Origin: Candidatus Bathyarchaeia archaeon | GTDB lineage: Archaea; Thermoproteota; Bathyarchaeia; Bathyarchaeales; Bathycorpusculaceae | NCBI GenBank assembly: GCA_041447175.1 | Contig: CP166960.1 | Coordinates: forward strand, 631,365-695,364 | Reading direction: 5' to 3' | Length of the DNA stretch: 64,000 nucleotides | Part shown: in pieces, positions 29,341-34,628 of the stretch | How the letters are laid out: each line of letters begins with the position of its first letter | Numbering within the stretch: position 1 is the first letter of the stretch | Position numbers and translations under genes: made by a program | Notes under the pieces: generated by a model | The model's database searches: none | What the model was told of the DNA's origin: nothing | What the model saw: only the letters and a program-made list of their open reading frames with translations

Positions 29341-30249
29341 TCACTGCACGATTTTTTCCCAGTCCGAAACCCGGTCAAGAAGTTCCTTAACTGGCTTTCC
29401 ACCGTAAGTTCTCAACCGCTCCCGCAGCTCCACCTGCTCAACCACAGCTTTCTGGAACTCCGCCATTTGACTGGTCTTCTCCGTCAGGAAGAGGAATCCG
29501 TCGGCGCCTGCCCGCGCAATTCGTGTGCTGACTGTGAGCAATTCTGTTGGTGGGGGCACATCGTTTGGGGTGTCGCCTGGACCGTAAACGTAGAGGCTGA
29601 CGTAGAAGGGTTTCTGGAGCAATTTTTTGAAGGCGCGTGCAAGCATTTCAAAGTACCATGGGGTCGCGTAGCTTTTGCTGAACATGACCACGTTAAAGGC
29701 GTCACAGTACTTTGCAAGTTCCCCAAAGTCTACGCCGTACCGCTCAAGACTCGTCACGGGGTCAGGCTGGATGCACATGACAAGTTCTTTTTTGGTGTGC
29801 TCACGGATTTGGGCGATGTAGTCGGTGACTTCTTTTCGGCGCCACTCCAGCCAGCCCAGCCCACTTTTCTGCCAGCGTTCCTTGCATCGGGGGCAGTTGC
29901 AGTGTCCATGGTCAGCAAAGTATTGGCTGTTAGGCCAAACCCCCATTGAGTGGCGGTCTACGTCTTCCATGTAGCTGAGTTGTTCGGCGCGGTGCTCAGG
30001 TTGCGTGGCGCAAACGATGTTCCAATAGATGTTATAGTTGCTGTTCCCCATCTTTGCAGGACCCAAAGGTGACTGGGACAGCCAGTCAGGATGCTCGCGA
30101 ATGGCTACGTTGTCGCCGAAAACTGCCACGTTCGCTGCCATGTCGGGCTGCGGAGGAATGCGGATGCCCATTTCGGTTTTAACGCGCAAAACATCAAAGT
30201 CAAAGCCCTCAGCTTTTTTAGGTTCTAAAGTGAATGTGCCAAACTTCAA
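29341..30249 (-). CDS. Predicted TIM-barrel glycosidase-like protein
   Basis: A 302-residue protein without signal peptide. HGHCNCPRCKERW around residue 115 resembles the CxCxxC-x-R/F segment found in several (beta/alpha)8 glycoside-hydrolase-like families, and alternating strand/helix segments (YCDAFNVVMFSKSYATPWYF, PFYVSLYVYG, RAGADGFLFLTE) fit a barrel. I do not see a confident acid/base pair, so catalytic activity is open. It may instead act on a sugar or uronate as a cytosolic enzyme. It stands alone. Confidence 0.6.
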   Translation of the reverse strand: MKFGTFTLEPKKAEGFDFDVLRVKTEMGIRIPPQPDMAANVAVFGDNVAIREHPDWLSQSPLGPAKMGNSNYNIYWNIVCATQPEHRAEQLSYMEDVDRHSMGVWPNSQYFADHGHCNCPRCKERWQKSGLGWLEWRRKEVTDYIAQIREHTKKELVMCIQPDPVTSLERYGVDFGELAKYCDAFNVVMFSKSYATPWYFEMLARAFKKLLQKPFYVSLYVYGPGDTPNDVPPPTELLTVSTRIARAGADGFLFLTEKTSQMAEFQKAVVEQVELRERLRTYGGKPVKELLDRVSDWEKIVQ

Positions 30250-30348: not shown

Positions 30349-31803
30349 TTAGATTTTGAGTCCTAAGCCTTCAGCTACGCGGCGCCCGTATTCGGGGTCG
30401 GCTTTGTAGAAGAGTTTGGTTTGCCGTATCTGGATTTCCTTGTTTGCATTGCACAGATGCGTGACGATGTTGCCTATGAGGTTTTCGCGGTCTTGCTCCG
30501 TCATGACTTTGCGGAAAAGGTCACCTGGTTGCACGAAGTCATCGTGGGGGTAGGTGTAGGGTTGGCGGGCGGCGTTGCCTTCAACTTTGAATTGTGGCTC
30601 AGCGGCTTGAATATCGGGTTCTGGACCCGCAAAGCTGTTCGGGTAGTAGTTGGGTCCTTTGCCGCCGTTTGCGTCAAAACGCATGTAGCCGTCGCGTTGG
30701 TAGTTTGCGGCTTCAACTGCTTTGGGGCGGTTTACAGGCAACAGATGGTAGTTGGGTCCGAGGCGGTATCGGTGGGCGTCATAGTAAGCAAACAGTCTGC
30801 CCTGCAACATTTTGTCTGGTGAGGCAGCGATGCCCGGTACAAAGTTGCCTGGCGAGAACGCGGCTTGTTCGACTTCGGCGAAGTAGTTGTCGGGGTTGCG
30901 GTTTAGCACCATGCGTCCAATGTTTATTGGCGGGTAGTCGCTGTGGGGCCAAACTTTAGTCACGTCAAAGATGTCAAAACGGTATTTGTCAGCGTCTTCA
31001 GGGGGCATTATCTGCACTTGTAGCGTCCAAGAGGGGTATTCGCCTCGGGCGATGGCGTTGTGCAAGTCGCGGGTGGCGTGGTCAGGGTCGGTGCCTTTGA
31101 GGTGTTCCGCTTCTTGGCGGGTCAGGTTTTGGATGCCTTGATCCGTTTTGAAGTGGTATTTGACCCAGACGTATTCGCCTTTGTCGTTGTACCATTTGTA
31201 GGTGTGGCTGCTGTAGCCGTTCATGTTGCGGTATGATTTGGGTGTTCCTCTGTCTGAGAACAGGATGGTCACTTGATGTAGTGATTCTGGCGTGAGGGAG
31301 AGGAAGTCCCAGAACATGTTGGCGTCTTTGAGGTTGGTTTCTGGGTTGCGTTTTTGGGTGTGGATGAAGTCAGGGAACTTTATGGGGTCGCGGATGAAGA
31401 ATACGGGTGTGTTGTTGCCCACTAAGTCGTAGTTGCCTTCTTTGGTGTAGAATTTAACTGCGAATCCGCGGGGGTCACGTTCTGCGTCTGCAGAGCCTTT
31501 TTCACCACCGACTGTAGAGAACCTCACAAAGACTTCAGTGCGTTGACCGACTTGCGAGAGAAAATTTGCCTTGGTGTATTTTGTTACGTCGCTTGTGACT
31601 TCAAAGTAGCCGCCTGCACCAGCGCCTTTAGCGTGCACGATACGTTCGGGTATGCGTTCACGGTTAAAATGAGCCAGCTTCTCAATTAGGTGGATGTCCT
31701 GCAACAGGGCTGGACCGCGTGAGCCTCCAGTAACCGAGTTTTGGTCATCATCAATTTTTCGTCCAAAATTCGTTCTAAGGTTTTTTTTATTGTTGTCACT
31801 CAT
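30349..31803 (-). CDS. katA: Catalase (haem, monofunctional)
   Basis: A 484-residue catalase: [20 protein letters not shown] with the distal His, [40 protein letters not shown] with the distal Asn region, and the proximal-haem motif [16 protein letters not shown] with Tyr. Length fits small-subunit (clade 1/3) catalases. It removes hydrogen peroxide. The ATG at 31803 (MSDNNKKN) follows GGGG. A TTTAAAT box lies about 50 nt upstream. In an otherwise anaerobic-looking gene set it suggests exposure to oxygen and probable acquisition from bacteria. Confidence 0.96.
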
Positions 31804-31903
31804 GAAAAACCCCAAAAGTTAAACGTATCTACATTTATTTAAAGCTTGGTTTGTTTTTAGGTTTTTCTCAACAGACAATTGTTCTGCAGAAAACTGTCAC
31901 AAG

Positions 31904-32473
31904 TTAGACCGTGATTTTGTTGCGCTGCATCTGTATCCTTACTTCCCTATACAACTGGTCAGCTGTCTGAACAATGCTGGTTCTTGAATGTGTTGCGTCA
32001 TCCAGTGCCCTTATCACTTTGTTGTTCACGGACTTGCCCACATCCCCCAAGTATGTTTTCTGCAGGTGCACACCGCTTTTTGTGAGTTCAGCCGCAACTT
32101 CATAGGGGCTAATCCCCTGATTATACTCGCCATCGTAAACCAGAGCCATGTTGCATTTGGTGTTGCTGCCGGTTTTCTTTGCGGTTTCAAACGCAAGTTT
32201 TAACCCCTCACCCATAGGGGAAGCCCCTTTGGCTTTCAGTTCTTCGATGCGGCTGACAAACGGCTTCATAGATGCAGAAAACGGCGGATACAACAGGTAC
32301 GCCATCATGTTGCTCCACGGGTAAACAACCACTGCGATGCGGTCTTTGGCGTCAAAGCCTTCGCGGCTGGTAAGAAGTTTGGTTAAGGCTTTTTTGGTGG
32401 TGTTGATTTTGGGTTCGTCATAAAGTTTGTCGTTCATGGAACGGGAGCAGTCAAGGATTAGGATACTTAACGT
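31904..32473 (-). CDS. von Willebrand factor A domain protein, non-canonical start
   Basis: A vWA domain of about 190 residues with MIDAS residues DCSRS (DxSxS), KGASPMGEG and VYDGEYNQG. The DxSxS encoded at 32452-32438 lies before the first ATG (32437). The frame is open back to a TAA, with no ATG, GTG or TTG in between; candidates are ACG 32473, 10 nt after AAAGGAG, or ATC 32479. It overlaps the 3' end of the tubulin-like gene in the +1 frame. An alternative is +1 frameshifting at CCU-UGA-C (32456-32450), fusing it to the tubulin-like protein. vWA proteins often assemble complexes by metal-dependent adhesion. The start shown is a proposal. Confidence 0.8.
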   Translation of the reverse strand, partial: TLSILILDCSRSMNDKLYDEPKINTTKKALTKLLTSREGFDAKDRIAVVVYPWSNMMAYLLYPPFSASMKPFVSRIEELKAKGASPMGEGLKLAFETAKKTGSNTKCNMALVYDGEYNQGISPYEVAAELTKSGVHLQKTYLGDVGKSVNNKVIRALDDATHSRTSIVQTADQLYREVRIQMQRNKITV

Positions 32474-34628
32474 TTGGATTAATCTCCTTTAAAAGGGGTT
32501 GAGTGGGGTTAGTTAGAGAAATTGTTGATGCCATCGGGTAACATTGACCGTTTTGGATGTGTTCCTTAAGGGTTTCATGCAGTTCCTCAAGTTTGCGCAG
32601 GTCCTTTATTTGGGTTGGGGGTATGCCGTCAAATTCGATGGCAAGATAAATGCTTGACCCCAAATTCTGCGCTTGAGCAATGTACCAGCCGATACCGTAT
32701 TCCCCTGTGCCATGCAGCCCCAGTTCAGCTTGAAACACATTCTGCAGATACGTCAAGTTGTTGGCTTCCCCAGAAACCAAATTTATCATCTGCACCGGAT
32801 ACTTCTTAGGTCCTCCATCACCCACATTGATGAAATCCACGTAGATGGGTGCATCCGCTGCTTTTCGGAAGGCTCCATTGATGATGTTTAGAAACCTGTT
32901 TTCGCCGTAAATCTTCATACCTATCTCGGAAAGCGGCAATAAGTTAATTTTACGCTGCCCCGGAATCCAGAAAGTTTCACGGAAACGGTCAAGCTCGTCT
33001 TCTTTGAATGGTAACTGAAACCCGGCAAGTCCACTTGGGCTTTGGGTTCGTTCAAGTTCATGTTGAAGCTTGTAGATTTCTTCTTTTAAGGTTGAGAGTT
33101 CATTTTTTTGTTGGTCTTGGTCTTTTCCAATTTGGTCACGGAGCTCAATGAATCTGTTTATCAGAAGTTGCAGTTTGTTGAGGTGCTCTTTTTTTTCCAG
33201 TACGTCATCCTGCAGTGGTCTGAGAATCGCTTGGTAGTTGTCAATTGCTCGGTGCAGGCGCCGTTTGCCTAAAATGTTCAGCTCGCTTTTAAGTGCTAGT
33301 TGCTCTCGTGCTTTCTGAATTTCCTCGTCGTATCGGGCTTTATCTACGTTTACAGCTTCGTGTTCACTTCGGCTCTGGTCCAGTTTAGTTTGAAAACTTG
33401 CAATTACGCCCGCAACTGCCTCCTTTAAGGGTGGGATACGATTTTGGGTGTCAAGTTTTAGTGCAGAAAACCATGCGTCGATGTCTTTGGTTTCAAGGTT
33501 CATGTAGTCAGCAGAAGCCAACTCAGCAATTCTTTGATTGACCAAATCAGTGGTTTGGGCATCCTGAACAAGAGTGCCCTCCAATTTCTGCTCGCGGTCT
33601 TTTAGCTGGTTCCATCTCTCCAAACCCATAGATGGAACAGACAGGTGGCAAACTTGGAAACTTCCAAAGCTGAAACGTTCGCCCCTGCAGTAATTAATTT
33701 CCGCTTGCCGTATTGCGTTGTCAAGGTTTTCCAGCGGCAACACGCGGGTTCCTCCGCCTCGGAAAAGCTCTGAGGGCAAAAGAATCTTGGAAAGAATAAA
33801 GTCCCTGATGTGCTGGTCTGCCCGTTTGTACTCTTGCGGGCTCATTTCAATTAAAGGGTAAATGTACACTGCGTTGTAGGAAGGTCCCACCATCAGCGTT
33901 CTGCCGTTGGGGTCAATTTCTGGCTGGTTATTGTGGTTTGACTGCAAAAACAGGACATCCCGCAACATAAAAAACTCGTTTAGCTGCGAATGCACTAATT
34001 CTTTGTCGGCTAAATCGATGTTTCTTGGGGCGCCAACCAAAATCAGCCATTGGCGTACACTTAATTCACGTTCTTGAAGCCCCTTCTTGGTCATCTTGGA
34101 CAGCTCGTTGATTACGCCGCTTCCAAAGCCGCCGCCCGCGCTGGAAACAAAAACCACATTGACCGTAGGCACCCGTGCGGAATCGCTTAAAGTGTAGTTG
34201 AAGTAGTCTCGAAAGAACCTGCAGCCCTCCATTATCCTGCCGTGAAATTGGTCCCAAATCCGTGGGTGCCGCATGTACACCATGGCTTTTCGGCGGTCCC
34301 TGCGGGCACCTTCACCGCTAACGGTGTTGCTTAACTCGGAAAAGCCAACGTCGTTATCTGAAAAAATTCCCAGTTCCCGCGCGATTTTGGGGTATTCATC
34401 ACGGTACCTGTCAATGCCGATGGGTTGAAAAGATTCATTTCGCGCCAGCAAACTATTCCGTAGTGCCTCAGCTATAGAGTCGCCAGACATGTCAAACGCG
34501 TCAACCCTCACGTTTTCCCGGTTGTCAGCTAACTCGCGAAGTCTAGCGGAAACCTCAGCTGCTATGGCAACTCCTGCGCCGCCCGCGCCTATAATCCAGT
34601 TGCCCTCTTTCATTTCTGATGTTTTCAT
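32451..34628 (-). CDS. Tubulin/FtsZ-like GTPase-type protein
   Basis: A 725-residue protein. GAGGAGVAIAAEV (residues 14-26) and FVSSAGGGFGSGVINEL (about 160-175) match the glycine-rich nucleotide loops of the tubulin-FtsZ superfamily, the second being GGGFGSG in place of GGGTGSG. Residues about 400-545 form a long charged coiled coil before a C-terminal domain. It is not cell-division FtsZ. From memory, Makarova and Koonin (2010) described FtsZ-like families linked to vWA proteins and proposed membrane remodelling; the adjoining vWA gene fits that. No ring-forming partner or dedicated GTPase gene is seen nearby. GTP binding and polymerisation are untested. Confidence 0.82.
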   Translation of the reverse strand: MKTSEMKEGNWIIGAGGAGVAIAAEVSARLRELADNRENVRVDAFDMSGDSIAEALRNSLLARNESFQPIGIDRYRDEYPKIARELGIFSDNDVGFSELSNTVSGEGARRDRRKAMVYMRHPRIWDQFHGRIMEGCRFFRDYFNYTLSDSARVPTVNVVFVSSAGGGFGSGVINELSKMTKKGLQERELSVRQWLILVGAPRNIDLADKELVHSQLNEFFMLRDVLFLQSNHNNQPEIDPNGRTLMVGPSYNAVYIYPLIEMSPQEYKRADQHIRDFILSKILLPSELFRGGGTRVLPLENLDNAIRQAEINYCRGERFSFGSFQVCHLSVPSMGLERWNQLKDREQKLEGTLVQDAQTTDLVNQRIAELASADYMNLETKDIDAWFSALKLDTQNRIPPLKEAVAGVIASFQTKLDQSRSEHEAVNVDKARYDEEIQKAREQLALKSELNILGKRRLHRAIDNYQAILRPLQDDVLEKKEHLNKLQLLINRFIELRDQIGKDQDQQKNELSTLKEEIYKLQHELERTQSPSGLAGFQLPFKEDELDRFRETFWIPGQRKINLLPLSEIGMKIYGENRFLNIINGAFRKAADAPIYVDFINVGDGGPKKYPVQMINLVSGEANNLTYLQNVFQAELGLHGTGEYGIGWYIAQAQNLGSSIYLAIEFDGIPPTQIKDLRKLEELHETLKEHIQNGQCYPMASTISLTNPTQPLLKEINPNVKYPNP

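Follow-up and report, generated by a model that had tools for sequence, protein, structure and literature searches.

Near-cognate start codons are known from eukaryotes (ACG and CUG) and from the AUU of bacterial infC, and archaeal gene finders consider only ATG, GTG and TTG, plus rare ATT, ATC, ATA or CTG. In archaea, overlapping genes couple the translation of partner subunits (PMC10666635), and the initiation factor aIF1 discriminates against non-AUG starts (PMC6237735). A phylogenetically conserved archaeal ACG start was not found in a literature search of open-licence papers. As to gene content, the closest described systems are the FtsZ-like 1/vWA operons, for which Makarova and Koonin (2010) predicted a role in membrane remodelling (PMC2875224).

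The window, a stretch of 64,000 nucleotides, is part of a single-contig 2.73 Mb genome (G000) that we compared with Bathyarchaeia relatives. On its minus strand, the end of a gene for a tubulin-like protein overlaps the beginning of a vWA gene, with the following features.

32451..34628, minus strand: predicted Tubulin/FtsZ-like GTPase gene, 725 aa (open reading frame, PF13809, profile comparison and dN/dS)
32489..32491, minus strand: in-frame TAA, upstream end of the vWA frame, kept in the orthologue
32484..32490, minus strand: Shine-Dalgarno (SD) sequence AAAGGAG, within the tubulin-like gene, kept in the orthologue
32471..32473, minus strand: ACG, proposed start codon, with ATG (L024:8158-8160) at the same place in the orthologue
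32450..32456, minus strand: CCT (32456-32454) TGA C, where the tubulin-like gene stops, and proposed +1 slip site, identical in the orthologue and judged to be dual-coding
32435..32437, minus strand: first canonical start in the vWA frame, an ATG that encodes the internal Met of DxSxSM, without SD
31904..32473, minus strand: vWA (MIDAS) protein gene, 189 aa if begun at ACG 32473-32471

The first-pass annotation had placed the DxSxS motif of the vWA protein upstream of its first ATG, in a frame lacking ATG, GTG and TTG, and re-reading of the sequence confirmed both the claim and its coordinates: there was no such codon in the vWA frame from the stop at 32491-32489 to the DxSxS motif. The codons after this TAA are AGG AGA TTA ATC CAA ACG (32473-32471) TTA AGT ATC CTA ATC CTT, followed on the same minus strand by GAC (32452-32450) TGC TCC CGT TCC ATG (32437-32435). 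The AAAGGAG sequence lies 10 nt upstream of ACG 32473 and 4 nt upstream of ATC 32479, and GGAGGTGATC is complementary to the 3' end of the 16S rRNA in the window genome (seen as the antisense TAGGAGGTGATCC). The vWA domain was significant, with E-values of 1.1e-11 for PF13519 and 5.4e-9 for PF00092, both above the Pfam cut-off, and the PF13519 match covered residues 8-120 of the long vWA frame, beginning ahead of the first ATG. In an AlphaFold model begun at the ACG, strand beta1 consisted of residues 2-9 at modest confidence (pLDDT 60), and the best PDB matches of the model were vWA domains. ATG 32437 was rejected as the start, as it has no SD and its use would delete strand beta1 together with the MIDAS motif. 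The vWA protein had no match in the defence-system library.

The tubulin-like protein consists of an N-terminal nucleotide-binding domain, a long coiled coil (about residues 333-527) and a C-terminal domain, and has a GGGFGSG loop at residues 165-171. Its match to PF13809 (Tubulin_2) was weak, 20.7 bits against a gathering cut-off of 27. Alignment by hhalign with an archaeal FtsZ-like-1 profile, built from 14 Thermoproteota Tubulin_2 proteins, gave Prob 96.3 and E 2e-9 over residues 10-313 (279 columns), with GGGFGSG aligned to GGGTGSG of the profile, indicating an N-terminal FtsZ-type domain. The coiled coil was also seen in the AlphaFold model as confident helices at 333-527 (pLDDT block means about 68-91); the C-terminal part had pLDDT below 50, and the quality of the model did not suffice for a fold search. 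SMC-like matches of the protein, and its matches in the defence-system library, were confined to the coiled coil. As judged by profile comparison, the tubulin-like protein is a distant FtsZ-like-1 relative, and we file it only as such because its score is below the PF13809 cut-off.

A vWA gene with DxSxS adjoins the tubulin-like gene both in the window and at locus L024 of Candidatus Bathyarchaeota isolate DYS_1 (genome G061), the nearest relative named and a member of the same genus. The gene pair is of an already known kind, and the link to the tubulin-like/vWA systems of Makarova and Koonin, made in the first-pass annotation, was right in kind. Reading of the neighbouring ORFs revealed no kinase, GTPase or OmpA gene beside the pair in the window; the neighbours read as a catalase, a protein with a VTT domain, a 302-aa protein that belongs to no Pfam family and a DUF2769 protein. 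The catalase gene (30349-31815, minus strand) sits between the vWA gene and the 302-aa gene (29341-30249, minus strand). In DYS_1 the 302-aa gene begins 32 nt past the vWA gene, and the catalase gene was therefore inserted in the window or lost in DYS_1. At the Bathyarchaeia Tubulin_2 loci examined, which encode proteins of about 810-890 aa, a vWA of the DxSxSM type was not found nearby, and the window pair therefore forms a lineage of its own that is rare within the class. A different large ORF (about 490-740 aa) lies 1-2 kb downstream at the Bathyarchaeia Tubulin_2 loci L052-L062.

When 91 family genomes, 257 class genomes and GTDB r220 contigs were searched for the tubulin-like/vWA pair, it was found in one further genome only, that of DYS_1 (2/257 in the class), with 78% and about 71% identity to the window for the two proteins of the pair. 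Viral contigs, plasmids and solved structures, the last searched by sequence, contained no relatives. The DYS_1 pair has an equal overlap and an equal upstream in-frame TAA. Its junction reads TAAAGGAGATTGGCCCGC[ATG]TTAATTTTCCTAATCCTTGAC (longer form TAAAGGAGATTGGCCCGC ATG TTAATTTTCCTAATCCTTGACTGCTCC), and that of the window TAAAGGAGATTAATCCAA[ACG]TTAAGTATCCTAATCCTTGAC (longer form TAAAGGAGATTAATCCAA ACG TTAAGTATCCTAATCCTTGACTGCTCC), so that the DYS_1 ATG lies exactly opposite the window ACG, each at a spacing of 10 nt from TAAAGGAG. The vWA gene overlaps the tubulin-like gene by 23 nt, counted from its ACG through the TGA. The T-to-C difference falls on the third position of a tubulin-like codon (CAT/AAC) and is by itself silent there; overlapping genes constrain each other, and this change from ATG to ACG was invisible to the upstream protein. 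The alignment suggests that ATG was probably the ancestral start and that ACG was derived from it by the T-to-C change. The simple ATG upstream of DxSxS for which the first-pass annotation proposed to look in orthologues does exist, and besides marking the likely ancestral start it counts against frameshifting, the second of the two explanations offered there.

Comparison of the window with DYS_1 gave dN/dS values of 0.20 for the vWA gene and 0.06 for the tubulin-like gene, and the remainder of the vWA frame was intact at a dS of about 1. Both frames are conserved in this relative and under purifying selection, and the vWA reading frame did not arise by chance. The ACG of the vWA gene is aligned with the start of a relative, stands behind an SD and has no canonical alternative. 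ACG itself is not conserved here, as the sole orthologous pair has ATG. The tubulin-like ORF of DYS_1 was frameshifted near L024:6222-6250, by an assembly error or by decay of the pair; some strains may be losing the tubulin-like/vWA system.

We assign a probability of roughly 0.7 to the reading in which two proteins are made and the vWA protein is begun at ACG 32473 by the ordinary initiator Met-tRNA, in a lineage that tolerates near-cognate starts. ACG 32473 is preferred over ATC 32479 because the ATG of the orthologue, likewise preceded by TAAAGGAG, falls exactly on the ACG; we infer that ACG is decoded as the start. One transcript would yield two separate proteins, of which the divergent FtsZ-like-1 GTPase with its coiled coil would be translated first. 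The ribosome for the vWA gene would be positioned by AAAGGAG and begin 23 nt ahead of the end of the GTPase gene, possibly with help from ribosomes that terminate at the overlapping UGA. Reading of ACG would involve near-cognate pairing with a middle-base mismatch, and the change from ATG would have been tolerated if near-cognate codons preceded by a good SD are acceptable starts in this lineage of Bathyarchaeia. Given the discrimination by aIF1, ACG should be inefficient, which we counted against the ACG start, and less vWA protein than GTPase would be made for the same reason. On the strength of the published FtsZ-like-1 family, the two products may act jointly, the GTPase as membrane-associated polymers and the vWA protein as a divalent-cation-dependent partner.

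It is unlikely that the ACG is non-functional, with the vWA gene untranslated or barely translated because an ATG was misread in sequencing or assembly or because the start was lost very recently. It is a single transition away from the orthologue's ATG and was read in one strain, and the partner gene of DYS_1 is frameshifted, so that the pair may be dispensable. The intact vWA frame at a dS of about 1 stands against this, as do the state of the single-contig genome and the recurrence of ACG starts in the lineage. In 855 kb of the window genome and 1.47 Mb of DYS_1, 368 orthologue pairs were compared, counting genes with a canonical start in one genome and none nearby in the other. In the window genome, the vWA gene was the sole clear case of start loss among the 368 pairs; in DYS_1 there were five cases. 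Among about 96,000 aligned codons, the window genome showed no convincing internal nonsense change; it is therefore well assembled, with its genes intact. An N-terminally short ABC-transporter ATPase ORF of this genome (L174:14028-14673, minus strand), compared with DYS_1, suggests a frameshift.

In DYS_1, two adjacent ferredoxin genes (G061:C6:88462-88773 and 88053-88409) have ACG opposite ATG of the window genome. The first has AAGGAG-9-ACG, and the other nine matching family copies have -TG at this place, the ACG being private to DYS_1; the second has AGGTGA-6-ACG against AGGTGA-6-ATG in the window genome. A gene for a radical-SAM-type protein with an HMPTM zinc ribbon (G061:C6:27341-28843) has an apparent ATT start behind GGAGG, and the gene at G061:C1:18109-19032 an apparent AGGTGA-6-CTG start, both with ATG in the window genome; for ThiI of DYS_1, ATA or ACG were the sole candidates available. 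Starts at AAG or AGG were not seen in this comparison. The expected number of start losses per nonsense change, computed from the actual codons, was 0.067. As DYS_1 had about 4 nonsense changes (and about 5 frameshifts) in 307 genes, its 4-5 start losses exceeded the prediction from the nonsense rate (P about 1e-4 to 7e-3); the numbers are low and depend in part on visual judgement, and many apparent losses were set aside on inspection as conserved 5' sequence or frames that do not code. An Lrp-like gene for which both genomes have ACG was left out, as a TTG lies upstream and the partner contig, G061:C2, is a possible contaminant. Few orthologues are common to that contig and the window genome, and ARAGORN called on it an 85-nt tRNA with anticodon TCA as SeC (L102:15507-15591). 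A special initiator tRNA with a CGU anticodon was considered; in the parts of the genomes examined by ARAGORN, which contained no initiator tRNA gene, the only tRNAs with a CGT anticodon were tRNA-Thr(CGT).

The recurrence of ACG was clearest in the gene for ThiI, which was identified by the Pfam ThiI, THUMP and ThiI_fer domains (PF02568, PF02926 and PF22025, respectively). The gene of the window genome lies at L171:6425-7606, minus strand (G000:C1:486425-487606), and its homologues at L188-L196. The start position was ACG in all seven genomes of the window genus (G000 and G058-G063) and likewise in the two genomes of a second genus (G001 and G002). In G061, G062, G059, G001 and G002, five of these nine genomes, an in-frame stop lies 1-3 codons upstream of the ACG. 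In G059 a TTG is also present between the upstream stop and the ACG, and in G000 a GTG lies six codons upstream of the ACG without SD. In more distant genomes of the family, from other genera, the position was ATG (G016, G087 and G089), GTG (G073, G075, G086 and G088), TTG (G080) or ATA (G044, L197). A class-wide pattern search, whose strict pattern missed some members found by reading the family, detected ThiI with ACG in those two genera only. The family comparison thus placed ThiI among the genes with a putative ACG start, of which it is the strongest case. An ACG kept at the start position in nine genomes argues against a non-functional ACG and for initiation at ACG 32473 in the vWA gene.

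Programmed +1 frameshifting at CCU-UGA-C, with a tubulin-vWA fusion as the product, had been proposed from a resemblance to prfB and is very unlikely. The orthologue has an identical CCU UGA C, and as in prfB-type frameshifting a P-site codon is followed by UGA C. However, the ATG of the orthologue (L024 8158) comes after the in-frame stop, making a shift needless there, and the vWA gene has its own SD, AAAGGAG, ending 27 nt before the CCT, a position suited to initiation. There was neither a stimulator near the slip site, such as an SD-like element 3 nt upstream of it, nor a startless downstream frame in the relative. The CCTAATCCTTGACTGCTCCCG stretch is identical in the window and the orthologue, an identity that, on the translations, is accounted for by dual coding of YPNP-stop/FPNP-stop in one frame and LILDCS in the other. 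The sections considered of a review on archaeal recoding present a fucosidase gene as a -1 case and describe no +1 case (PMC8211752). The fusion was rejected as unnecessary given the orthologue's ATG and the absent stimulator.

Another non-canonical start within the short stretch, such as ATC 32479, is highly improbable. This codon is near-cognate and directly past the SD, but its spacing of 4 nt is short, and the orthologue has GCC opposite it and ATG at the place of the ACG. Of the two unusual starts named in the first-pass annotation, ACG 32473 was thus retained and ATC 32479 dropped; the argument made there from a short SD distance held in its direction and failed in its codon, which is ACG at 10 nt. 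We know of no mRNA editing in archaea. C-to-U editing of ACG to AUG, as in plant chloroplasts (PMC9845219), is the least probable explanation. ACG, which is edited in chloroplasts, accounts for several of the near-cognate starts, but the ATT, CTG and ATA cases could not be converted to AUG in this way.

If initiation at ACG is as proposed, gene finders, which ignore ACG, truncate genes with this start by placing their beginning wrongly; such mis-annotation would deprive the vWA protein of its metal-binding motif and ThiI of its first domain. Tentatively, and at somewhat below even odds, this Bathyarchaeia branch may have relaxed start selection, with ACG (more rarely ATT, CTG or ATA) serving regularly as a minor start for a small percentage of its genes. 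Certain of these starts would be conserved and perhaps regulatory, as for ThiI and the vWA gene, and with proteomes predicted by table 11 the branch would be systematically mis-annotated. A natural ACG start in nine archaeal genomes would, if true, be direct evidence on the eukaryote-like initiation factors of archaea, which would then tolerate near-cognate codons as those of eukaryotes do.

The window pair resembles the FtsZl1 (Pfam Tubulin_2)/vWA operons in its FtsZ-type domain, GGG-GSG loop, long coiled coil and adjoining vWA gene with DxSxS intact. It differs from them in its score below the Pfam cut-off, in the absence of kinase, P-loop GTPase and OmpA genes, and in its minimal vWA protein (189 aa, without a fused domain), which is encoded by an overlapping gene with a putative ACG start. 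With the termination-reinitiation overlaps of archaea (PMC10666635) it shares the same-strand overlap, the likely partnership of the products and the SD inside the upstream gene, whereas its overlap of 23 nt is longer than the usual 1, 4 or 8 nt and the start codon of the vWA gene is non-canonical. Like the near-cognate starts of eukaryotes and of infC, the candidate starts described here (ACG, CTG and ATT) are one base off AUG and stand in a good context; unlike them, they belong to archaeal genes, and the ACG of ThiI is kept in nine genomes. A conserved natural ACG start of this sort would count as a new variety of near-cognate initiation in archaea.
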